Of a DNA stretch of 52,513 nt, positions 3,335 through 13,307 are shown in pieces. Numbering within the stretch: the stretch's first letter is position 1; each line of letters begins with the position of its first letter. Below the pieces are notes generated by a model that was given only the letters and a program-made list of their open reading frames with translations, was not told where the DNA came from and ran no database searches. The position numbers were made by a program, and so were the translations under genes. Source of the stretch: Terriglobia bacterium (lineage in GTDB: Bacteria > Pseudomonadota > Alphaproteobacteria > Acetobacterales > Acetobacteraceae). Location: NCBI GenBank assembly GCA_023511585.1, contig JAIMBF010000013.1, forward strand, positions 1 through 52,513, written 5' to 3'.

Positions 3335-4189
3335 ATGCAAACCGCCCTCAGCGTGCTTGTCGATTCGATGCTGATTACCTTTGTCTTTGCGCTTGCCGCG
3401 CTTGGGCTTGCGATCATTTTCGGTTTGATGGGCGTCATCAATATGGGGCATGGGGCTATGCTCACCCTCGGCGCCTATTTCACTTGGTTCGCAACCACCA
3501 AGGGCGTCCCCTTCGTTGCCGCCGTGCTTCTTGCCGCCGCCGGCGTGGGTTTGATCGGCTTGTTGCTGGAACATTTCATCATCCGCCATTTCTACGATCG
3601 GCCGTTTGAAACGCTGCTGCTGACTTGGGGGTTTTTCTTGATCAGCACGGAGCTTATCAAAATCGCTTTCGGCACCGATTTGCGCACGGTGACCAACCCT
3701 TTACCCGGGGCCGCGCATTTCGGCTCTTTCGTCTTGCCGGCTTATCAAAGTGTTGTCGCGCTGATCTCGCTCGCTCTGATCGTCGGCCTCGGGGTGATGC
3801 TGTATCGCACCGGGCTCGGGATCAAAATTCGTGCGTTGGTGCAAAATGCCGAGGTGGCCAGCCTGCTCGGGCTGAATGTTGCCAGGGCTTATAAGCTGGT
3901 TTTCGTTGCCGGGTCTGCCGCGGCGGGCCTGGCCGGCGCGTTGATCAGCCCGATGCTTTCGGTTGACCCCTATATCGGCAATATTTTTCTGGTGCGTTCG
4001 TTTTTCGTCGTTATCGTGGGCGGGATCGGGCAAGTGCTGGGCGGCACGCTCGTGGGCAGTTTCCTGATCGGCGGGTCGGAAACCTTCTTCGCGCTGTTTT
4101 CCGGGCAGGTGGTTGCGCAAACGATCGTCTTTATGCTGGCGATTCTGGTTCTGCGGTTTCGCCCCGCCGGCGTGCTGCGTGCGCAATGA
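3335..4189 (+). CDS. ABC transporter permease, LivH/UrtB type
   Basis: Inner-membrane permease of 284 residues with about eight hydrophobic segments. Family hallmarks are the N-terminal GLAIIFGLMGVINMGHGAMLT stretch (the NxGHG element seen in LivH/UrtB proteins) and the C-terminal GGIGQVLGGTLVGSFLIGG loop. It forms the channel with the LivM-type permease whose gene overlaps its stop by 4 bases (ATGA). A 92-base gap separates it from the binding-protein gene, but direction and gene order support one operon. Confidence 0.92.
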   Translation: MQTALSVLVDSMLITFVFALAALGLAIIFGLMGVINMGHGAMLTLGAYFTWFATTKGVPFVAAVLLAAAGVGLIGLLLEHFIIRHFYDRPFETLLLTWGFFLISTELIKIAFGTDLRTVTNPLPGAAHFGSFVLPAYQSVVALISLALIVGLGVMLYRTGLGIKIRALVQNAEVASLLGLNVARAYKLVFVAGSAAAGLAGALISPMLSVDPYIGNIFLVRSFFVVIVGGIGQVLGGTLVGSFLIGGSETFFALFSGQVVAQTIVFMLAILVLRFRPAGVLRAQ

Positions 4190-5196
4190 AATATCCGCCT
4201 GCCCTGTCTCGCCTTTCCTTTTCCTGGTATTCGGAAAATGCGGTTGCGACCGTTATTTTTGCCGTGCTCGCGCTGCTGCCGGCGTTCCTCTCCGGCTATG
4301 TGATCTATATCGTGCCGCAATATTTGCTCTACGGCGTGTTGGCGATGTCGCTGGCGCTGCTTTGGGGGGTTGCGGGGATTTTGAGCTTCGGCCAAGCGGC
4401 GTTCTTCGCGCTCGGCGCTTATGCGATGGGGCTTGCGCCGCACTGGACGAGCAGCGTCGATCCGTTTTATCTCGCGCTGCTTGTCAGCCTTCTCATCGGT
4501 GCAGTGCTCGCAGGGGTGGTGGGATATTTCCTGTTTAGCGCCGGCGTGCGTGATGTTTACTTTGTTTTGGTGACGCTCGCGCTCTCCATCATGACGGAGC
4601 AGATCACCGTGAGCCAGTCCGACATCACCGGCGGCTATAACGGCATGTTTATCCCGCGCGCGCAATTGAGCTTCGGCGGTGTGAGCCTCGATCTCTCGGC
4701 GGACGTGCCCATGTATTACACGATCTTGCCGATCGTCATCGGAATTTACGTGCTGCTGCGTCTGGTGGTGGCATCGCGCTTCGGCAAGGTGCTGGTCGGC
4801 ATCCGCGAGAACGAGGATCGCGTGCTTTCGCTTGGTTTTCGCACATCGCTTTACAAAACCGCGGCCTTTGCCCTCTCGGGCGCCGTTGCCGGCCTGGCCG
4901 GGGCGCTCTATGGCACGCATGCCAGTTTTGTTTCGCCGTCGCTCGCCGGCGTTTTGTTCTCGACGCAGGTGGTCGTTTGGGTTGCCATCGGCGGGCGCGA
5001 ATCTTTGCTCGGCGCTTTACTCGGCGCCGTCGGGGTGGCGGCTTTGTCCAACTACCTCACCGCGATCACACCGGAATATTGGCAGTTGGTCGTGGGGATC
5101 GTGTTCGTTATCGTGATTATGGCCTTCCGCGGCGGCGTCGCCGGCGCACTGATTCGCCTCGGGAGCCGACCCCCGATGGAGCCGGAACGTGGCTGA
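4186..5196 (+). CDS. ABC transporter permease, LivM/UrtC type
   Basis: Second channel subunit, 336 residues, with around nine to ten hydrophobic segments. The N-terminal part shows LLYGVLAMSLALLWGVAGIL and SFGQAAFFALGAYAMG, the standard LivM/UrtC elements. The central loop VLVGIRENEDRVLSLGF is the coupling-helix (EAA-like) region that contacts the ATPases. The start codon overlaps the LivH-type gene by ATGA, and its 3' end overlaps the following ATPase by 8 bases, so the whole cassette is tightly coupled. Confidence 0.92.
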   Translation: MKYPPALSRLSFSWYSENAVATVIFAVLALLPAFLSGYVIYIVPQYLLYGVLAMSLALLWGVAGILSFGQAAFFALGAYAMGLAPHWTSSVDPFYLALLVSLLIGAVLAGVVGYFLFSAGVRDVYFVLVTLALSIMTEQITVSQSDITGGYNGMFIPRAQLSFGGVSLDLSADVPMYYTILPIVIGIYVLLRLVVASRFGKVLVGIRENEDRVLSLGFRTSLYKTAAFALSGAVAGLAGALYGTHASFVSPSLAGVLFSTQVVVWVAIGGRESLLGALLGAVGVAALSNYLTAITPEYWQLVVGIVFVIVIMAFRGGVAGALIRLGSRPPMEPERG

Positions 5197-5908
5197 GCTG
5201 CTGCGCACGGAGGGCCTGAGCAAACGCTTTCGCGGGCTGGTCGCCAACGACGCAATCGATTTCACCTTGCAAGAAGGCGAGGTGCGTTGCGTGATCGGCC
5301 CGAACGGGGCGGGAAAAACCACTTTTATCAGCATGGTTTCGGGCCATCTGAGCCCTTCCTCCGGCCGCATCGTCTTCCGCGGCCGCGATGTGACGCACAC
5401 TTCCGTGCCGGCACGGGCCCAGATGGGGATTGCGCGCAAGTTCCAAACCCCCTCGGTCTTCGATCGCCTCAGCGTTTATGCCAATCTGGAGCTGGCCTCT
5501 TTCGGCAAACCCGCGAGCGCAGCGGAGCGGGAAAGACGCATCGCCGAGGCATTGGAACTGACCCGGCTTGTCGAGCTTCGCGCGCTCCCGGCTTCCGCGC
5601 TTTCGCACGGGCAGCGGCAATGGCTGGAAGTAGGCATGCTGCTTGCCAATCGCGCCGAGCTTTTGCTGCTGGATGAGCCCACCGCCGGCATGACGGCGGA
5701 AGAGACGCGCGCAACCGGGGAGCTCATCCGCACGCTGGCCGATACGCATCGGCTCAGCGTGATTATCATCGAGCACGACATTGCGTTTATCCGCGAGCTT
5801 AAGGCGCCCGTGACGGTTCTGCATCTCGGCCGCGTTTTAATGACGGGGCCGTTTGAGGCGGTCGCCCAAGACGAACGGGTGCGCAGCGTCTATCTGGGTA
5901 AAGAATGA
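5189..5908 (+). CDS. ABC transporter ATP-binding protein, UrtD/LivG type
   Basis: Cytoplasmic ATPase of 239 residues; GTG start overlapping the permease gene. It carries Walker A GPNGAGKTT (37-45), the UrtD-like IARKFQTPSVF segment with the Q-loop near 86, signature LSHGQ (138-142) and Walker B LLLLDE (158-163). The KFQTPSVF element and EPTAGMT after Walker B favour the urea/amide subgroup over classic LivG. It is paralogous to the ATPase at 320-1054, consistent with two related transport systems side by side. Confidence 0.92.
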   Translation: MAELLRTEGLSKRFRGLVANDAIDFTLQEGEVRCVIGPNGAGKTTFISMVSGHLSPSSGRIVFRGRDVTHTSVPARAQMGIARKFQTPSVFDRLSVYANLELASFGKPASAAERERRIAEALELTRLVELRALPASALSHGQRQWLEVGMLLANRAELLLLDEPTAGMTAEETRATGELIRTLADTHRLSVIIIEHDIAFIRELKAPVTVLHLGRVLMTGPFEAVAQDERVRSVYLGKE

Positions 5909-6609
5909 TGCTCCTGGAGCTCAAGGAAATTCACGCGGGCTACGGCCCGGTGCCGGTCTTGCGCGGGGTTTCGCTACAGCTGGGCGAAGGCGAAATCCTT
6001 GGCGTGCTCGGCCGCAACGGCATGGGCAAGACAACGCTGATCCGCTGCATCGCGGGGACGCTGCCTCTGACGCAAGGAAGCATTCACTTTGCCGGGCAGG
6101 AGATCACGCGGCTTGCCCCGCATGAGCGCGCGCAGCTTGGGCTGACCACCGTGGTGCAGGGCCGCGGCGTTTTTCCCCGCTTGAGCGTGTGGGAAAATTT
6201 GGAGATGGGCCGCATTGCCGCGGGCGGGGGCAAGAGAAGCCGGCTTGATGAAGTGATCGGCTATTTCCCCCGCCTGGGCGAGCGGCTGCGCCAGCCGGCC
6301 GGCACGTTAAGCGGCGGGGAGCAGCAAATGCTTGCGATCGGCCGCGCGCTGATGACGCATCCGAAACTGATTCTGCTGGATGAACCCTCCGACGGTATCA
6401 TGCCGATCCTGGTGCACCAGATTGCGGAGATTCTGCTGCAGATCAACCGGCGCGAGGGCGTTGCCATTGTCATTGTGGAACAAAACGTGCCGATGGTTTT
6501 CGCGCTCACCGACCGCTGTGTGATTTTGGAGAAAGGCCGCGTGGTGGCCGAAGGCACGCGCGAACAGGTCTCGCAAAGCGCAGTCATGCGCGAATATCTG
6601 GCGATTTAG
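5905..6609 (+). CDS. ABC transporter ATP-binding protein, UrtE/LivF type
   Basis: Last gene of the second transporter cassette, 234 residues, starting in an ATGA overlap. Walker A GRNGMGKTT (36-44), signature LSGGE (135-139) and Walker B LILLDE (155-160) are intact, followed by PSDGIMP, the expected LivF/UrtE form with its proline. With the UrtD-type partner it makes the heterodimeric motor. No clear terminator follows; about 130 bases of non-coding sequence precede the iron-regulated promoter of the next operon. Confidence 0.92.
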   Translation: MMLLELKEIHAGYGPVPVLRGVSLQLGEGEILGVLGRNGMGKTTLIRCIAGTLPLTQGSIHFAGQEITRLAPHERAQLGLTTVVQGRGVFPRLSVWENLEMGRIAAGGGKRSRLDEVIGYFPRLGERLRQPAGTLSGGEQQMLAIGRALMTHPKLILLDEPSDGIMPILVHQIAEILLQINRREGVAIVIVEQNVPMVFALTDRCVILEKGRVVAEGTREQVSQSAVMREYLAI

Positions 6610-6772: not shown

Positions 6773-6789
6773 TGCAAATCATTCGCATT
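6771..6789. promoter_or_regulatory. Fur-type operator
   Basis: AATGCAAATCATTCGCATT is a 9-1-9 inverted repeat with a single mismatch between its arms, the geometry and base content of Fur boxes (reference GATAATGATAATCATTATC). A longer view, TGCAAAT-N7-ATTTGCA (6773-6793), is also perfectly symmetric. It overlaps the -10 element. Irr, another Fur-family iron regulator of Alphaproteobacteria, is an alternative binder. Confidence 0.65.
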
Positions 6790-6827: not shown

Positions 6828-8402
6828 ATGAAAAAACAAAAGCTTTGGACACCACCGGCGCGCGGCTGCCCGCACAGCGCGCGCCATCGCAGCGGGATAG
6901 GGATCGGTTTGGCCGCGGTGCTCGCGGGGATGATGCTCGGGCGGGCGGAGGCGCAAACCGCTTCTCCGCCCGGCGCGGAGACGTCTCCGCCTGCTCAAGC
7001 CGGCACGCCTCCGGCAGCCTCCACCGAGACCTCGGCCGCAACGACATCCTCGGCTCCGGGAGAGACGGGGTTTTTCACCGGCCTGTTTTCGCCCTCGCGC
7101 AGCAACCTTCTGGGCGATATGGGGGGGCTTCGGAGCTTTCTCGGCAATTACGGCATTTCGCTCGGCCTTTCTGAAATCAGCGAAGTTTTGGGCAACGTCA
7201 CCGGCGGCGTGCACCAGGGCTTCGATTACGACGGGGTTACCATCATGAGCATGGGCCTCGATACTCAGAAGGCGTTCGGTTGGGACGGCGGCATTTTCAA
7301 TGTCAGCGCGTTACAGATTCACGGCCGAGATCTCACCACCGACAACCTCTATGTGCTGCAACTGGCGAGCAGTATCGAGGCGGAACGCACCACACGGCTT
7401 TGGGAACTCTGGTTTCAGCAATCCTTCTTTGCCGGCAAAATAGATCTCAAAATCGGCCAGCAAAGCATTGACCAAGAGTTCATGGTCGATCCCTATTCCT
7501 CGGCTTTGTTTATCAATGCGGTGATGGGCTGGCCGGCGCTGCCCACGGTCGACTTCTATGCCGGCGGCCCGGTCTATCCGCTTTCCTCGCTCGGTGTTCG
7601 CCTCCGCGCCCAGCCCACCAACAACATCACGGTGCTTGCGGGCGTGTTCGACGACAACCCGCCCGGCGGACCGTTCAACAATGATTCGCAGCTCCGCGGC
7701 GCCGAAGCGGCGGGTTTGGCGTTCAACCTCAATACCGGCGCGCTCTGGATTGCCGAGATTCAATACGCGCTCAATCAGCCCGCGGTGGGCGATATGGTCT
7801 CCCCCAATGCGCCTCCGCCCGGCTTGCCCGGCCTTTATAAGCTCGGGTTTTGGTATGATTCGGGGGCGTTTCCCGATCAACGCTTCGACACCAGAGGCAT
7901 TTCGCTTGCCAGCCCGGCAAGCAACGGGCTTCCGTTCATGCACCAGGGCAATTGGGGCGTTTATGCGCTGGGCGATCAAATGATTTGGCAGCCCGACCCG
8001 AAGGGGCCGCAATGGCTGGGTGTTTTTGCCCGCGCCATGGCCGCGCCGCCCGATCGCAATTTGGTATCCTTCAGTGCCGACGCGGGCTTGGTGCTGAAAG
8101 CGCCGTTTTCGGGGCGCGACAACGACACCGCGGGCATCGGCTTCGGCGTGGCCAAAATCAGCAGCGCGGCGGCAGCGCTGGACACCGACATCGCCTTCTA
8201 CACCAAGAGCAATTATCCCGAGCGCACGGCAGAGACCTTCATCGAAGCGACGTATCAGGTGCAGATCGCGCCGTGGTGGCAGGTGCAGCCGGATTTTCAA
8301 TATTTCATCCGGCCCGTCGGAGGAATTCCGAACCCGCTGCAGCCGGGCAAAGTGATCGGCAATGAATTCGTGCTCGGCGTGCGCACCAATGTCGTTTTCT
8401 AA
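6828..8402 (+). CDS. OprB-family carbohydrate-selective-type porin
   Basis: Outer-membrane channel of 524 residues. I place the start at ATG 6828, after GAAGACGAGGAC, rather than at a TTG at 6789 that falls inside the operator. A signal peptide is evident (KK near the start, hydrophobic GIGLAAVLAGMMLGRAEA), then a Pro/Ala/Ser/Thr-rich linker, then the OprB-like barrel beginning LGDMGGLRSFLGNYGISLGLS. Typical OprB landmarks are WELWFQQSF, LKIGQQSIDQEFM, and a C-terminus ending in phenylalanine (RTNVVF) for barrel assembly. OprB porins admit sugars, but members of this family serve other small solutes too. Being first behind a Fur-type box suggests a role under iron limitation. Confidence 0.85.
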   Translation: MKKQKLWTPPARGCPHSARHRSGIGIGLAAVLAGMMLGRAEAQTASPPGAETSPPAQAGTPPAASTETSAATTSSAPGETGFFTGLFSPSRSNLLGDMGGLRSFLGNYGISLGLSEISEVLGNVTGGVHQGFDYDGVTIMSMGLDTQKAFGWDGGIFNVSALQIHGRDLTTDNLYVLQLASSIEAERTTRLWELWFQQSFFAGKIDLKIGQQSIDQEFMVDPYSSALFINAVMGWPALPTVDFYAGGPVYPLSSLGVRLRAQPTNNITVLAGVFDDNPPGGPFNNDSQLRGAEAAGLAFNLNTGALWIAEIQYALNQPAVGDMVSPNAPPPGLPGLYKLGFWYDSGAFPDQRFDTRGISLASPASNGLPFMHQGNWGVYALGDQMIWQPDPKGPQWLGVFARAMAAPPDRNLVSFSADAGLVLKAPFSGRDNDTAGIGFGVAKISSAAAALDTDIAFYTKSNYPERTAETFIEATYQVQIAPWWQVQPDFQYFIRPVGGIPNPLQPGKVIGNEFVLGVRTNVVF

Positions 8403-8433
8403 CAAACAGGCTCGCAACTTGCGGAGGAATGCG

Positions 8434-9549
8434 ATGTTACGCTCTTCGTTGTTTGCTTCTCTCACACTCGCGGCAAGTCTTTTGCCGCTTTCGGGGTTTG
8501 CGGATCCGGCAGGATTTCTGGAAACCGTCCATCACCACGATATGCTGACATCCACCGTGCCGGAAAACGGCGATCAAAACCCCTATGCAGTGATCGTTGC
8601 GCCGGTTTCATCCGGCAAAATTCAGAAAGACGATGTGCTGGTCGACAATTTCAACGACAAAAACAATTTGCAAGGGTTGGGCACGACCATCGTGGATTAC
8701 CGCCCTTCGACCAAAAAACTTTCACTTTTTGCCGCCATCCCGCGCCACCTGGCCTCCTGCCCCGGCGGGGTGGGATTAACCACGGCGATGGCCATGTTGA
8801 AAACGGGTTGGGTGATTGTCGGCAGCCTGCCGAGCAACGACGGCACCACCGCAACAAAGGGCCAGGGCTGTCTGATTGTATTGGATTCACAGGGCAATGT
8901 TGCAAAAACGATCACCGGCCCGAACATCAACGGGCCGTGGGGAAATATGGCGCTGATCGATAACGGCGCCACCGCAACGGTGTTTGTCAGCAATACGGGG
9001 TTTGATGTCGGCGCCCCCGTGGATGATGCGCCGGTGGTGCGCAAGGCGAACGTGCTGCGGATCGAGCTTGCCATTGAACCGGGCAAGCAGCCTGTGGTGA
9101 CCAAAGAAACGATTATCGCCGACGGCTTCGGCGAACAGGCCGACAAGAGCGTGTTCATCATCGGACCGACGGGGCTTGCGCTGGGTCAAGACGGCACGCT
9201 TTATGTTTCGGATGCGATCGATAATCGTATCGTTGCCATTCCGAATGCGACCACGCGAACCGAGAGCGCCGGCACCGGCAAGGAAGTCACCAAAGACGGT
9301 TTGCTGCAGCGGCCGCTGGCTTTGTGTATGACGCCGAACGGGCACCTTTTGGCGACAAACGCCTTGAACGGGCAGGTGGTGGAGATCGATCCCGTTTCCG
9401 GCAAGCAGATTTATGCGCAATGGATCGACGCGAATAAGGCGCAGACGCCGCCCGGCAGCGGAGATCTCTTCGGCATCGCCATGACCCCGGACGGCAAGGG
9501 GTTTTATTACGTCGAAGACGACGTGAACGCGCTGGTTTTGGCACATTGA
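8434..9549 (+). CDS. Exported beta-propeller (NHL/SMP-30-like) protein
   Basis: Predicted periplasmic protein of 371 residues. The start at ATG 8434 is chosen because GGAGGA sits 5 bases upstream and a clean signal peptide follows (hydrophobic residues up to SGFADP). A longer frame would begin inside the porin. The mature protein shows repeated propeller-blade elements such as LGQDGTLYVSDAIDNRIVAI, MTPNGHLLATNALNGQVVEI and MTPDGKGFYYVEDDVN. A HHHD cluster occurs just after the signal peptide and might bind metal. It lies 31 bases after the porin and 25 bases before the peroxidase, so probably one transcript. The specific function is unknown. Confidence 0.72.
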   Translation: MLRSSLFASLTLAASLLPLSGFADPAGFLETVHHHDMLTSTVPENGDQNPYAVIVAPVSSGKIQKDDVLVDNFNDKNNLQGLGTTIVDYRPSTKKLSLFAAIPRHLASCPGGVGLTTAMAMLKTGWVIVGSLPSNDGTTATKGQGCLIVLDSQGNVAKTITGPNINGPWGNMALIDNGATATVFVSNTGFDVGAPVDDAPVVRKANVLRIELAIEPGKQPVVTKETIIADGFGEQADKSVFIIGPTGLALGQDGTLYVSDAIDNRIVAIPNATTRTESAGTGKEVTKDGLLQRPLALCMTPNGHLLATNALNGQVVEIDPVSGKQIYAQWIDANKAQTPPGSGDLFGIAMTPDGKGFYYVEDDVNALVLAH

Positions 9550-9574
9550 ACCTGCCGAAGGAGAGGAGGAACCC

Positions 9575-10966
9575 GTGAGCGGCTGTCCATTTTCCACACG
9601 GCGCGGATTGCTCGGCGGGGCAGGCAGCGTGCTAGCCGCCGCAGCCTTTGGCAAAAGGGCGCGGGCCGAGGCCGATAGCGCCGGCACCGCCGACACCGCC
9701 GCGCAGACGGCGCAGATCCCGTTCTACGGCCGTTACCAGGCCGGCATTTCCACGCCGCAACAAACACATGTTGTTTTCGCCTCCTTCGATCTCATCGCCA
9801 AGAAAGCGGGCGAGATTGTCGCGATGCTGAAGGCCTGGACGGAAGCCGCGGCGCGCATGACGGCGGGGCAAACCGCTGCGCCGCTGGGCGCCGACCCCGC
9901 CGCCGCCCCGGCCGATAGCGGCGAGACGCTGGGGCTTTCGTCCCGCCGCCTGACGCTGACCTTCGGTTTCGGACCCGGCTTGTTCGAAAAGGACGGCAAG
10001 GATCGTTACGGGCTTGCGGCAAAACGGCCGGAGGCGTTGGTGGACTTGCCGCGGTTTGTCGGCGATCAGCTGGATCCGCAACGAAGCGGCGGAGACCTGT
10101 GCATTCAAGCCTGTGCCGATGACCCGGTAGTGGCTTTTCACGCGGTTCGCCAGCTGGCCCGCATCGCCGCGCCCGATGACGCCGCCATGGGATACGGCGG
10201 CAAGCGGCCCGGCGCCTATCGGGCCGAGAACGCCAAACGCGGTGTTGCGGTGCTGCGTTGGATGCAAACCGGCTTTCTGCCGGAAGGTCCTGCCGGGGAG
10301 ACGCCCCGGAACCTGCTCGGCTTCAAAGACGGCACGCAAAACCCCGGCAGCCCTTACCCGGCCGAGCGCGCGGGGGGCAAGCTGATCGACAACGGCAGCC
10401 TGGAAGAGGTGGTCTGGGTGGGGCAAGAGGGCCCGGATTGGATGCGGAACGGAAGCTACATGGTGGTGCGCCGCATCCGCATTTCGCTTGAGCATTGGGA
10501 CCGCACCGAGCTTGATTTTCAAGAGCAGGTGATCGGGCGCAAAAAGATCAGCGGCGCGCCGCTTTCGGGCGGCGATGAATTTGCGCCGCTTGATCTCGAT
10601 GCCGTCGATAAAGACGGCAACCCCGTGATTCCGGCGAATGCGCATGTTCGGCTGGGGGCCGCGTCCAGCAATGACGGCGCGCGCATCTTGCGCCGGAGCT
10701 ATTCCTACCATGACGGGCTTGCTATGATCGCCGAACGTTGGCCGCCCTGGCGGCAGGGTTTGGAATACGATGCGGGGCTTTTGTTCATTGCGTATCAGAG
10801 GGATCCGCGCCGCGGCTTTATCAAGATTTTCGAGAATATGGCGAAGCTTGATTTGCTCAACCAGTACACCACGCATGTGGGCAGCGGCATTTTTGCCTGT
10901 CCGGGCGGGGTGAAGCCCGGCGAATTTATCGGGCAGGCGTTGTTTCGTGACACCGCCGCCGGTTAG
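9575..10966 (+). CDS. Tat-exported DyP-type heme peroxidase (EfeB-like)
   Basis: Heme peroxidase of 463 residues, GTG start after GGAGAGGAGG. The N-terminus is a Tat signal (STRRGLLGG at 7-15, then a hydrophobic Ala-rich stretch), so the folded, heme-loaded enzyme would go to the periplasm. DyP hallmarks: GFKDGT (249-254) with catalytic Asp252, the proximal heme His357 in NAHVRL, and the distal arginine in ILRRSYSYHDG (371-381). EfeB-type enzymes belong to the EfeUOB iron-uptake system, but neither efeU nor efeO is present here. Iron control of the operon fits an iron- or heme-related role; peroxide-dependent dye/phenol oxidation is the general DyP reaction. Confidence 0.9.
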   Translation: MSGCPFSTRRGLLGGAGSVLAAAAFGKRARAEADSAGTADTAAQTAQIPFYGRYQAGISTPQQTHVVFASFDLIAKKAGEIVAMLKAWTEAAARMTAGQTAAPLGADPAAAPADSGETLGLSSRRLTLTFGFGPGLFEKDGKDRYGLAAKRPEALVDLPRFVGDQLDPQRSGGDLCIQACADDPVVAFHAVRQLARIAAPDDAAMGYGGKRPGAYRAENAKRGVAVLRWMQTGFLPEGPAGETPRNLLGFKDGTQNPGSPYPAERAGGKLIDNGSLEEVVWVGQEGPDWMRNGSYMVVRRIRISLEHWDRTELDFQEQVIGRKKISGAPLSGGDEFAPLDLDAVDKDGNPVIPANAHVRLGAASSNDGARILRRSYSYHDGLAMIAERWPPWRQGLEYDAGLLFIAYQRDPRRGFIKIFENMAKLDLLNQYTTHVGSGIFACPGGVKPGEFIGQALFRDTAAG

Positions 10967-11699
10967 CGCGCGCAACGCGGTTCCGGAGCTCGGGCCCGAG
11001 ATTTATGCCGGCTGGCGCGCCTCCGATATCGGTGTGATAACGGAACGGTTGGAACGCGCGCTGATTCTGAAACTTGCGGGAGAGGTGAGGGGCAAGAAAG
11101 TTCTCGATGTCGGCTGCGGCGACGGCGATCTGGCGCTGGCGCTTTGGCAGCAGGGAGCGCTTCCCACGGGCGTGGATCTTTCAACCGAGATGCTTGCAAC
11201 CGCTCGGGCGCGTGCAGAGGCGAAGGCCGCGGAAATCGGTTTCGTGCTAGCAGCGACGGAACGTTTGCCGTTCGGTGCCGCAACGTTTGATCTGGTGCTG
11301 GCCGTTACGGTTCTCTGTTTTATCGAGGATGCGGCGCCGGTGTTTCGGGAAATGGCGCGGGTGTTGCGGCCGGGCGGGAAGCTGGTGGTCGGCGAGCTCG
11401 GCAAATGGAGTTCTTGGGCGCTGGCACGCCGCGTGCGCGCGTGGTGCGGCTCGGCGCTCTGGGCGCGGGCGCGTTTTCGATCTCGGCGCGAACTGATCGG
11501 GCTTGCGCAACAGGCGGGCTTGGAAGTGGAAACGATACGCGGCGCGATCTATTATCCGCGCGTGCGTGTGTTGGCGCGGCTTTGCGCGCGGTGGGATGCA
11601 GCGCTCGGCCGGCTCACGACATTCGGTGCGGCTTTTCTGGCGCTGGCGGCGCGAAAGACGGCCGCAGAGCGTGCGGGTGGGGAATGGGCAATGCGATAA
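10947..11699 (+). CDS. Class I SAM-dependent methyltransferase
   Basis: Cytoplasmic methyltransferase of 250 residues with a UbiE/Methyltransf_11-like layout. Motif I VLDVGCGDGD (52-61) binds S-adenosylmethionine; LPFGAATFDLVLAVTVLCFIED and VLRPGGKLVVGELGKWS are later core strands. The GTG start overlaps the peroxidase gene by 20 bases, suggesting translational coupling and a shared role, but the substrate is not recognisable. It ends the iron-regulated gene group; the neighbouring genes lie on the opposite strand. Confidence 0.82.
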   Translation: MTPPPVSARNAVPELGPEIYAGWRASDIGVITERLERALILKLAGEVRGKKVLDVGCGDGDLALALWQQGALPTGVDLSTEMLATARARAEAKAAEIGFVLAATERLPFGAATFDLVLAVTVLCFIEDAAPVFREMARVLRPGGKLVVGELGKWSSWALARRVRAWCGSALWARARFRSRRELIGLAQQAGLEVETIRGAIYYPRVRVLARLCARWDAALGRLTTFGAAFLALAARKTAAERAGGEWAMR

Positions 11700-11733: not shown

Positions 11734-12567
11734 TTACGCCGGGTGATGTGCCTCCCTCTGCCGGGGCACCGGCAAATATTCCACGCCGCCGCCTTGGCGC
11801 CGCACGGGCTGCGGATAGAGCGTCATCAGCTCCAGGATTTCCGTGGGCATCTCCGTGTTCACAGGCAGGCCCAAGTCCCGCGCCTCGTCCGCAGAGATCG
11901 GGTAATCGTGGGTCCAGACTCCCGTTGCAAGCTTTTCCGCCAACGCGCGCGCGTGTTGCCTCTCCATGTGTTTGGCCAGAAGCTCGGTTGCGACGGCTTC
12001 GACCTGGGCAATCGCCTTGCGCCCGACATCGGCCATGACCAGTGTTTGATCGTCGACCTCGGCAATGGGTTTTTCCTCCGCAACCTTGATGATCGAGGCC
12101 GCCGGCATGCCGCCGAGTTGGGGGTCGATCGGGCCGAGCATGGAATGGCGGCACATCACGATCTCATCCGCCGCAAGCGCGATCAAGGTGCCGCCCGACA
12201 TGGCGTAATGCGGCACAAAAACCGTTACCTTCCCTTTGTGCCCCTGGATGGCGCGGGCGATCTGGGTGGCTGCCAGCACCAGGCCTCCCGGTGTATGCAG
12301 CACGATGTCGAGCGGCACATCGTCGTCTGTCATCTGGATTGCGCGCAAAACCTCTTCTGAGTCGTTGACGTCGATGTAGCGCATCACCGGAAAGCCGAGG
12401 AGGTTCATAGTCTCTTGACGATGAATGAGCAAAATGACGCGGCTGCCGCGCTTCTTCTCAATCTGGGCGATTTTCCGCGCGCGCATTGCTTCCAGATATC
12501 GGCGTTGCAGCACCGGTTGCAGCGCCGAAATGATGAAAAAGAGCCAAAAGAGCTGCATTATATCCAT
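11734..12567 (-). CDS. Membrane-anchored serine protease, SDH/ClpP-like (serine dehydrogenase proteinase family)
   Basis: 277-residue protein with one N-terminal membrane helix (LFWLFFIISALQPVL, about 6-20) followed by a basic linker and a ClpP/SppA-type crotonase fold. Visible elements are HTPGG (91-95, oxyanion-hole type), the nucleophile-like Ser124 in YAMSGGTLIA, and HSMLGPIDPQ (141-150) supplying candidate His/Asp. The start at 12567 is supported by AAGGAGGA shortly upstream and by the membrane helix directly following. That ribosome site is encoded within the last codons of the rhomboid gene, which overlaps the start by 10 bases, so the two are co-translated. Substrates are unknown; the family is implicated in membrane-protein quality control. 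Confidence 0.82.
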   Translation of the reverse strand: MDIMQLFWLFFIISALQPVLQRRYLEAMRARKIAQIEKKRGSRVILLIHRQETMNLLGFPVMRYIDVNDSEEVLRAIQMTDDDVPLDIVLHTPGGLVLAATQIARAIQGHKGKVTVFVPHYAMSGGTLIALAADEIVMCRHSMLGPIDPQLGGMPAASIIKVAEEKPIAEVDDQTLVMADVGRKAIAQVEAVATELLAKHMERQHARALAEKLATGVWTHDYPISADEARDLGLPVNTEMPTEILELMTLYPQPVRRQGGGVEYLPVPRQREAHHPA

Positions 12568-13307
12568 GGACCTGGTCCTCCTTCTCGACGCCCATCCGGC
12601 AAGAAGCCGTAGATGCCCTCGTCGCGGTAATACTGACGGTAAGCGGTGTCTGACCTGCGCAGCAACGGGGTGAGGAGCCATCCCGCGACAAACCCGCCGA
12701 TATGCGCCCACCAGGCGATGCCGCCCGAAGTCTCATTGCCCAACGAGAGAAGCCCGGGGATGACCTGCATGAGCAACCAGATCGTCGCGAACACGGCCGC
12801 GGGGATCTCGAAGAAGAGCGGAATAAAGAGGATGGGCACGATCACGATCAGCCGCGCCGCCGGAAACATCCGTGCATAACAGCCGATCACGCCCGCGATG
12901 GCACCCGATGCGCCGAGCGCCGGCACGATCGATTGAGGATTGGCAAGGGCATGGGCGAGCCCCGCCGCGAGACCGCAGATGAGATAGAAGAGGGCAAATC
13001 GCATCGAGCCCAACCGGTCCTCGACGGCCGGGCCGAAGATCCAGAGCGTCCACATGTTCAGGATGAGGTGCAGCCACCCCCCGTGCAGAAAGAGGTGCGT
13101 GAGGAAGGGGGTCCAGTCGGAGGGAGCGATCTGGCTGAGTGGCCCGAAGAAGCGCGAGGGCACCAATGCGTATGCGAACAGGAATCGATTGAGCTCCTGC
13201 GCGGGCAGGCTGATTTGGTAGAGGAACACGAGAACGTTCACGCCGATCAACGTCCAGACGACGACGGGCGGGTATCTTCGTGCGACCGTGTCCAAATAGG
13301 GGAACAA
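12558..13307 (-). CDS. Rhomboid family intramembrane serine protease
   Basis: 249-residue polytopic membrane protein, likely six or seven helices. The catalytic serine lies in GASGAIAG (Ser134) and the histidine in AHIGGFVAG (His202); the upstream HxxxxHxxxN element (His75, His80, Asn84 in HGGWLHLILN) is present. The start at 13307 is TTG, preceded by AAGG at good spacing; alignment with the usual rhomboid N-terminus (MFPxxD) supports it. Rhomboids cleave transmembrane segments within the bilayer. The 3' end overlaps the SDH-type protease gene, a pairing that suggests sequential membrane proteolysis. Confidence 0.9.
   Translation of the reverse strand: MFPYLDTVARRYPPVVVWTLIGVNVLVFLYQISLPAQELNRFLFAYALVPSRFFGPLSQIAPSDWTPFLTHLFLHGGWLHLILNMWTLWIFGPAVEDRLGSMRFALFYLICGLAAGLAHALANPQSIVPALGASGAIAGVIGCYARMFPAARLIVIVPILFIPLFFEIPAAVFATIWLLMQVIPGLLSLGNETSGGIAWWAHIGGFVAGWLLTPLLRRSDTAYRQYYRDEGIYGFLPDGRREGGPGPWI

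Follow-up and report, generated by a model that had tools for sequence, protein, structure and literature searches.

Iron uptake with EfeB is known from the EfeUOB (YcdNOB) system, in which EfeU belongs to the FTR1 type, EfeO joins a cupredoxin to an M75 domain and EfeB is a dye-decolorizing peroxidase (DyP) exported by the twin-arginine translocation (Tat) pathway. ATP-binding cassette (ABC) importers of the FbpABC/HitABC/SfuABC type consist of a binding protein, a double permease and an ATPase; to our knowledge, the known systems of this type are supplied by receptors or siderophores, and none receives its iron from a porin, propeller and DyP encoded beside it. For FtrABCD of Bordetella and Brucella, the main text of a review describes oxidation of Fe(II) by a cupredoxin before import (PMC5681537), and the passages of one report that deal with FeoP of Acidithiobacillus present a porin-like protein of the OprB family that has a predicted Fur box and is tied to an iron importer (PMC2631029). 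Here we describe a locus on contig JAIMBF010000013.1 of assembly GCA_023511585.1, deposited as a Terriglobia bacterium and placed in the Acetobacteraceae; the whole stretch of 52,513 bases, which is contig C167 of a 3.14-Mb genome that is 96% complete, is called the window below. In this window, genes for an OprB-family porin, an exported six-bladed beta-propeller and an EfeB-like DyP follow one another behind a Fur-box-like palindrome (Table 1). Porin, propeller and DyP form a unit, and the view that this trio is a real, recurrent, Fur-linked iron-acquisition unit is well supported by gene order, the regulator site, a ferric transporter with intact ligands and other iron neighbours. We further think it fairly probable that the trio makes up the front end, in outer membrane and periplasm, of a Fur-controlled, siderophore-independent iron import route that works with an exchangeable inner-membrane importer.

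The locus shares with EfeUOB the Tat-exported EfeB-like DyP, the iron-regulator site and an FTR1 gene in the genome or, in one relative (L107), in the cluster. It differs in that EfeU is absent and EfeO was not recognised at the trio locus, while a porin and a propeller are added. The window's genome shows a cupredoxin alone beside FTR1 (M75 was not searched genome-wide). The sequence-only reading had concluded from the missing EfeU and EfeO that this is not EfeUOB, which holds for the locus, where no FTR1 is found, but is incomplete in that an EfeU-type FTR1 permease stands beside a cupredoxin elsewhere in the genome. An EfeUOB-like DyP-FTR1 pair without porin or propeller matches does occur in a propeller-negative Acetobacteraceae genome (G011, contig C6, locus L136) and provides a useful outgroup for the module DyP. 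FtrABCD systems (Bordetella, Brucella, Burkholderia) and EfeU-cupredoxin pairs resemble the FTR1 and cupredoxin genes of the window's genome, yet here that pair is unlinked to the trio, and in the main text of the review the word 'peroxidase' is absent, while its passages on this system name neither a porin nor a propeller as encoded with it (PMC5681537). FeoP shares the OprB-family porin, the Fur-type box and the link to an iron importer; its partner, however, is FeoABC, and the passages on it mention neither a propeller nor a DyP (PMC2631029). Taken with these systems, the trio is rated as a variant of EfeB-based iron uptake rather than as a new kind of system.

How widely does the trio recur? 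A scan of 84,980 species genomes with the propeller gave 555 related stretches; our locus counts use the best 80 of these and are therefore weighted towards close relatives, with Paraburkholderia strongly represented. A porin lies directly upstream of the propeller in 74 of the 80 loci and a DyP directly downstream in 72. Six loci have no upstream porin (L058, L065, L068, L073, L127 and L129, in the last of which the porin comes after the DyP). Eight have no DyP: five end at a contig edge, and L059, L067 and L083 were negative downstream even in a relaxed search, the L059 genome carrying a DyP on another contig (G041:C25). The hosts include Acetobacteraceae, Burkholderiaceae and Pseudomonas. 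Many genera, from more than one class, thus show the adjacency, and the genes are not together only in this genome, the outcome that the sequence-only reading had set against its own proposal. Counting the window's genome each time, 18 of 100 relatives have the propeller. Sampling showed it in 62 of 298 Acetobacteraceae genomes (32 of 96 genera) and, across the phylum, in 4 of 397 genomes. The DyP follows this distribution: at 1e-40 it was matched in 59 of the 62 propeller-positive Acetobacteraceae genomes versus 1 of 18 propeller-negative ones, the latter drawn from 20 listed among 236 negatives.

Some observations from the comparison stand apart from these counts. At positions 4793-4957 of L067, a partial second propeller gene lies 3' of the first, in the usual place of the DyP, and the contig stops there. 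Two plasmid-collection records (L023, Burkholderia arboris; L044, B. stagnalis) encode propeller relatives of 33-36% with no porin or DyP match nearby, which indicates that the propeller family extends beyond the module. Contigs labelled Solirubrobacterales, Planctomycetota, Verrucomicrobiales and Oligoflexia (L055, L079, L101 and L073) carry Proteobacteria-like modules; because L055 is the same contig as G027:C225 of an Acetobacteraceae genome, a wrong label is likely, at least in that case.

In the window, the three genes are followed by a methyltransferase gene, which had been proposed as a fourth member. The layout was described correctly: the four genes are co-directional, with exact spacings from the open reading frame (ORF) coordinates of 31 bases between porin and propeller, 25 bases between propeller and DyP and a 20-base overlap of DyP and methyltransferase. 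Membership of the methyltransferase, by contrast, was rejected, as the gene does not recur with the trio. None of the 24 loci fetched earlier, of which 8 lie on contigs that also occur in the set of 80, has a match to it, and its single, distant match in the 80 loci (L076, 31%) lies unlinked on the opposite strand, 5.4 kb from the porin. The methyltransferase is probably a local passenger outside the conserved unit and may be co-transcribed with the trio in this genome. The SDH protease gene further downstream was likewise matched in 0 of the 80 loci and in none of the earlier 24.

The second line of evidence is the regulator site. Fur boxes classically have a 7-1-7 form, and the palindrome in Table 1, which lies 40 bases before the porin ATG, is the only 10/10 match to TGNNAATNATTNNCA in the window; no 9/10 match occurs elsewhere in it. 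Among relatives, a 7-1-7 match of 9/10 or better precedes 39 of 54 porins versus 29 of 330 other upstream regions; the 54 are the porins from the set of 80 loci that had enough sequence and 100 or more free bases upstream, with genes called by a home-made rule. Compared with controls of no higher G+C, the contrast is 39 of 54 versus 21 of 85 (P = 4e-8), for a pattern picked after inspecting 19-mer consensus sites. Perfect matches precede 17 of the 54 porins, 11 of the 330 other regions and 9 of the 85 regions of no higher G+C. The E. coli-like 19-mer consensus itself gave 53/71 versus 127/1331 for random windows and 60/355 for shuffles. The box precedes whichever gene comes first, be it that of the ABC substrate-binding protein (L127, L129) or the propeller (L058), and a single site serves two divergent genes in L068 and L072. 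From these sites we infer Fur control of the trio; two FUR-family genes are present in the window's genome. An iron-type promoter had been claimed for the operon, of which the Fur box stands; pattern searches showed no sigma-70-like promoter ahead of the porin and, for promoters and terminators, nothing above chance.

The neighbours of the trio in other genomes link it to inner-membrane iron transport. In 48 of the 80 loci, all three ferric ABC genes lie within the fetched flanks of up to 10 kb, so that these relatives have an FbpABC/HitABC/SfuABC-like set of binding protein, double permease and ATPase beside the trio instead of EfeU; two further loci near contig edges (L102, L106) show the binding-protein gene alone. 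In most beta- and gammaproteobacterial loci, the ABC genes lie 3' of the DyP; several others have them ahead of the trio or divergent from it (L055, L060, L068, L102, L127 and L129). In Paraburkholderia largidicola, the deposited order reads carbohydrate porin, hypothetical protein, efeB, iron ABC substrate-binding protein, permease and ATPase. The closest solved relatives of the binding protein are HitA, a ferric ABC binding protein, SfuA, YfuA and FbpA-type proteins (best E 3e-76), and in 56 aligned sequences (54 distinct) H34, Y218 and Y219 are conserved at 100% and E82 at 96%, positions that we take to be those of the FbpA His-Glu-Tyr-Tyr iron ligands. The ABC importer was assigned as ferric because of these solved-structure matches and the retained ligand residues; the substrates suggested by NCBIfam names (phosphonate, molybdate, polyamine and others) all scored under cut-off and were set aside. 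Other iron genes adjoin some loci. A cupredoxin is a neighbour in 7 of the 80, among those without ABC genes, FTR1 follows the DyP in L107 as the sole locus of 80, and a bacterioferritin-like gene was seen in 3 of the 34 loci compared for shared neighbours (L030 and L088 being the same contig), with the copy in L094 above the TIGR00754 cut-off. The claim of the sequence-only reading that this is an envelope iron module is thus borne out for the trio, with its Fur-type site and the ferric ABC genes of its relatives.

But what about the window's own genome? Unlike the relatives with FbpABC/HitABC/SfuABC-type genes, it has no close permease copy: no permease of this type was matched at 1e-40 (best match 25% identical, 2.7e-9), and FeoB, searched with an E. 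coli-type model, gave no match at 1e-30 and none above the model cut-off. One FTR1 match was found on contig C69, outside the window, with a cupredoxin gene 31 bases upstream on the same strand. An 8/10 Fur-like site, one of two in 16 kb, overlaps the start of the cupredoxin ORF as listed and lies ahead of a possible ATG inside it. The trio probably hands its iron to this FTR1-cupredoxin pair, a suggestion helped by L107 and by the cupredoxin neighbours of other loci. An ABC permease was matched at 1e-40 in 22 of the 62 Acetobacteraceae genomes with the propeller (just 43-44% identical in G041 and G052), and no FeoB match in these comparisons passed the cut-off of its model. FTR1, ABC and FeoB rarely occur together in the 62 positives (G599, G640, G707) and in the 18 negatives (G024 only) alike, which makes the rare overlap uninformative on the module.

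Put together, these observations suggest the following route, of which the chemistry and the job of the propeller are what we infer. At low iron, Fur would leave its box and the operon would be expressed. The porin would then pass iron, free or as a small chelate, across the outer membrane, and the Tat-exported, EfeB-like DyP could oxidise Fe(II) or strip the ligand from iron in the periplasm. The propeller may be a dedicated partner of the DyP, serving either to bind the iron complex as it enters or to hold the peroxidase close to the pore. Fe(III) would go on to the host's own importer, which would be the HitABC/FbpABC-type ABC in most beta- and gammaproteobacterial relatives seen and probably the unlinked FTR1-cupredoxin pair in the window's genome.

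The sequence-only reading had left open whether an iron or a heme compound enters through the porin. The link to iron stands, and heme is less favoured: an FbpABC/HitABC-type ABC importer in the same cluster of relatives points to iron rather than heme. A module in which the porin admits heme or another porphyrin, the propeller carries it and the DyP extracts the iron as a deferrochelatase before import by ABC or FTR1 would fit the Fur link of the locus, the annotation of EfeB-type DyPs as deferrochelatases and the frequency of propeller residues H35 and H304 (each in 30 of 36 homologues). The deferrochelatase activity of EfeB-type DyPs is itself disputed, however, the partner belongs to the FbpA/HitA type of free-ferric transporters and the propeller has no invariant histidine. 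In addition, judged by eye, none of the gene clusters common to at least 3 of 34 loci resembled heme transport, in a comparison whose reference set has no heme-transport genes and in which most neighbours are unassigned. We therefore consider a heme module unlikely and prefer the import of iron, free or as a small chelate.

The DyP itself scores 427 bits against TIGR01412 (cut-off 428), and a Paraburkholderia relative scores 465 bits. Its twin-arginine motif and residues D252, H307, H357, R373 and R374 are identical in 90 aligned DyPs (85 distinct). We take the motif together with D252, H357, R373 and R374 to be the export and catalytic residues of the DyP, and by this alignment the catalytic residues are intact. 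H307 sits in the motif LEHWDR in 90 of 90 module DyPs, in contrast to seven other EfeB-type sequences, in which, by eye, the position holds V or I (four similar PDB EfeB entries), T (8olp) or R (G011, G590); among the sequences compared, H307 marks the module's DyP. The G590 sequence (L138, contig C87) is a second DyP paralogue, 47% identical, with Arg at the His307 place and no propeller nearby. Residues 199-222 of the window DyP form a 24-residue insertion that is absent from 88 of the 90 aligned DyPs and shared with L068 (Acidocella aminolytica).

DyP peroxidases act on dyes and aromatics, and a periplasmic peroxidase that removes H2O2 or aromatics under iron stress, next to ABC genes merely through shared Fur regulation, would account for the 30 of 80 loci without nearby ABC genes. 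It would not readily explain why the DyP is nearly confined to propeller-positive genomes, why the ABC genes come after the trio in the same order in most beta- and gammaproteobacterial relatives, or why FTR1, cupredoxin or bacterioferritin genes adjoin some loci that lack ABC genes. A role in stress defence or detoxification is accordingly given little probability here.

The propeller belongs to a family of its own, and the nearest folds found with Foldseek and VIA-align for its structure model (pLDDT 88.7, pTM 0.87) are six-bladed NHL, SMP-30, DFPase and lactonase propellers. The best match is the lactonase RPA3624 (Z 29.9, root-mean-square deviation 2.3 over 267 residues, 18% identity); among the 50 matches listed, Z ranges from 26.5 to 29.9 and the deviation from 2.3 to 3.4 over 248-297 residues. 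These scores speak for fold membership only, as NHL and designed propellers score like SMP-30, gluconolactonase and DFPase. In 36 aligned homologues, Cys109 is invariant and Cys146 nearly so, along with many G, D, N and W residues, and neither an invariant histidine nor a recognised catalytic set was found. The sequence-only reading had pointed to an HHHD cluster, which is present as residues 33-36. As a metal-binding set it was rejected: D36 occurs in the window alone (1 of 36) and H34 in 9 of 36, next to H33 in 23 (K or R in the others) and H35. The lack of an invariant histidine speaks against a propeller enzyme with an obligatory one and leaves room for H35; judged from the alignment, a single histidine, H35 or H304, may still be of importance.

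Might the propeller act on a sugar acid instead? Acetobacteraceae, Burkholderiaceae and Pseudomonas are known as sugar oxidisers, the porin belongs to the OprB family and the nearest propeller folds are those of a lactonase, DFPase, SMP-30-like and NHL proteins, a combination that would suit an importer in which the porin admits ferric complexes of gluconate-like acids that these bacteria produce outside the cell, the propeller binds the sugar acid or opens it, and the DyP assists in freeing the iron. What argues otherwise is that the likeness is one of fold alone (11-14% identity to DFPase and Drp35, 18% to the lactonase), that the SGL Pfam model scores 19.4 bits, below its cut-off of 26.3, and that the propeller has neither an invariant histidine nor a recognised catalytic set. 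An iron-sugar-acid importer is therefore improbable in our view. The same low likelihood applies to its extended form, a TonB-receptor-independent front end for ferric sugar-acid complexes that would be built from the porin, a gluconolactonase-fold propeller, the H307-type DyP and exchangeable HitABC-type or FTR1 pumps.

Several points weigh against the preferred reading of the trio as the front end of an iron importer. OprB porins are usually sugar channels, and the solute specificity of this porin is not readable from sequence; a metabolic job of the propeller is possible, given that its close relatives in modelled fold are lactonases and phosphotriesterases. The 80 loci were taken as the closest among 555 and are rich in Paraburkholderia, and 30 of them have no ferric-type ABC gene nearby. 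FTR1 is not commoner with the propeller than without it (above cut-off in 18 of 62 positive versus 6 of 18 negative genomes), and FTR1 as a general partner is unsupported by this co-occurrence. Neither an ABC permease nor FTR1 was matched in 24 of the 62 positives, 12 of which also have no FeoB match at 1e-30, which leaves some hosts with no match to an importer of these kinds. Finally, the Fur enrichment is much weaker under the cruder 19-mer consensus with controls of no higher G+C (29 of 54 versus 23 of 85, P = 0.002).

Table 1. Features of the porin-propeller-DyP locus (window coordinates)
Feature	Position	Strand	Details
Fur-box-like 7-1-7 palindrome TGCAAATCATTCGCA	6773..6787	not assigned	extra repeat extends to 6793
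OprB-family outer-membrane porin	6828..8402	+	524 aa; PF04966 326.7 bits vs cut-off 22.9, E 3.1e-97
Exported six-bladed beta-propeller	8434..9549	+	371 aa; own family; one NHL repeat, 24 bits vs cut-off 20
Tat-exported EfeB-like DyP heme peroxidase	9575..10966	+	GTG start; Dyp_perox_N + Dyp_perox_C
Class I methyltransferase	10947..11699	+	Methyltransf_11, E 7e-26

Upstream of the porin, at 4186-6609 of the window, lie co-directional branched-chain/urea-type ABC transporter genes for a permease and two ATPases, which end 218 bases before it; the permease and the last ATPase score under the Urt cut-offs. An ATPase gene resembling this type is also found close upstream of the porin in L110, which is the same contig as L031. 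Convergent to the methyltransferase, at 11734-13307 on the minus strand, are genes for an SDH-type ClpP-like serine protease and a rhomboid protease, whose listed ORFs overlap.

Finally, we would like to place the trio in the context of what has been described. No description of it was found among the open-access papers listed, as judged by titles and abstract openings and with most subscription journals outside this scope, and in the main text of a Gluconacetobacter Fur study (PMC9368920) the words 'porin' and 'EfeB' are absent. For aerobic, often acid-loving bacteria, the passage of iron through the outer membrane in the absence of a TonB receptor is little known. In the widespread trio, EfeB and two different iron pumps are tied to a dedicated porin and to a propeller family that has no name, a link that is directly testable; the trio gives a family of hypothetical proteins a working role and suggests that EfeB may serve an ABC importer, beyond EfeU alone. 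Present with an iron-regulator site in many soil bacteria, and often beside an iron pump, the trio looks like the front end of an undescribed uptake route.

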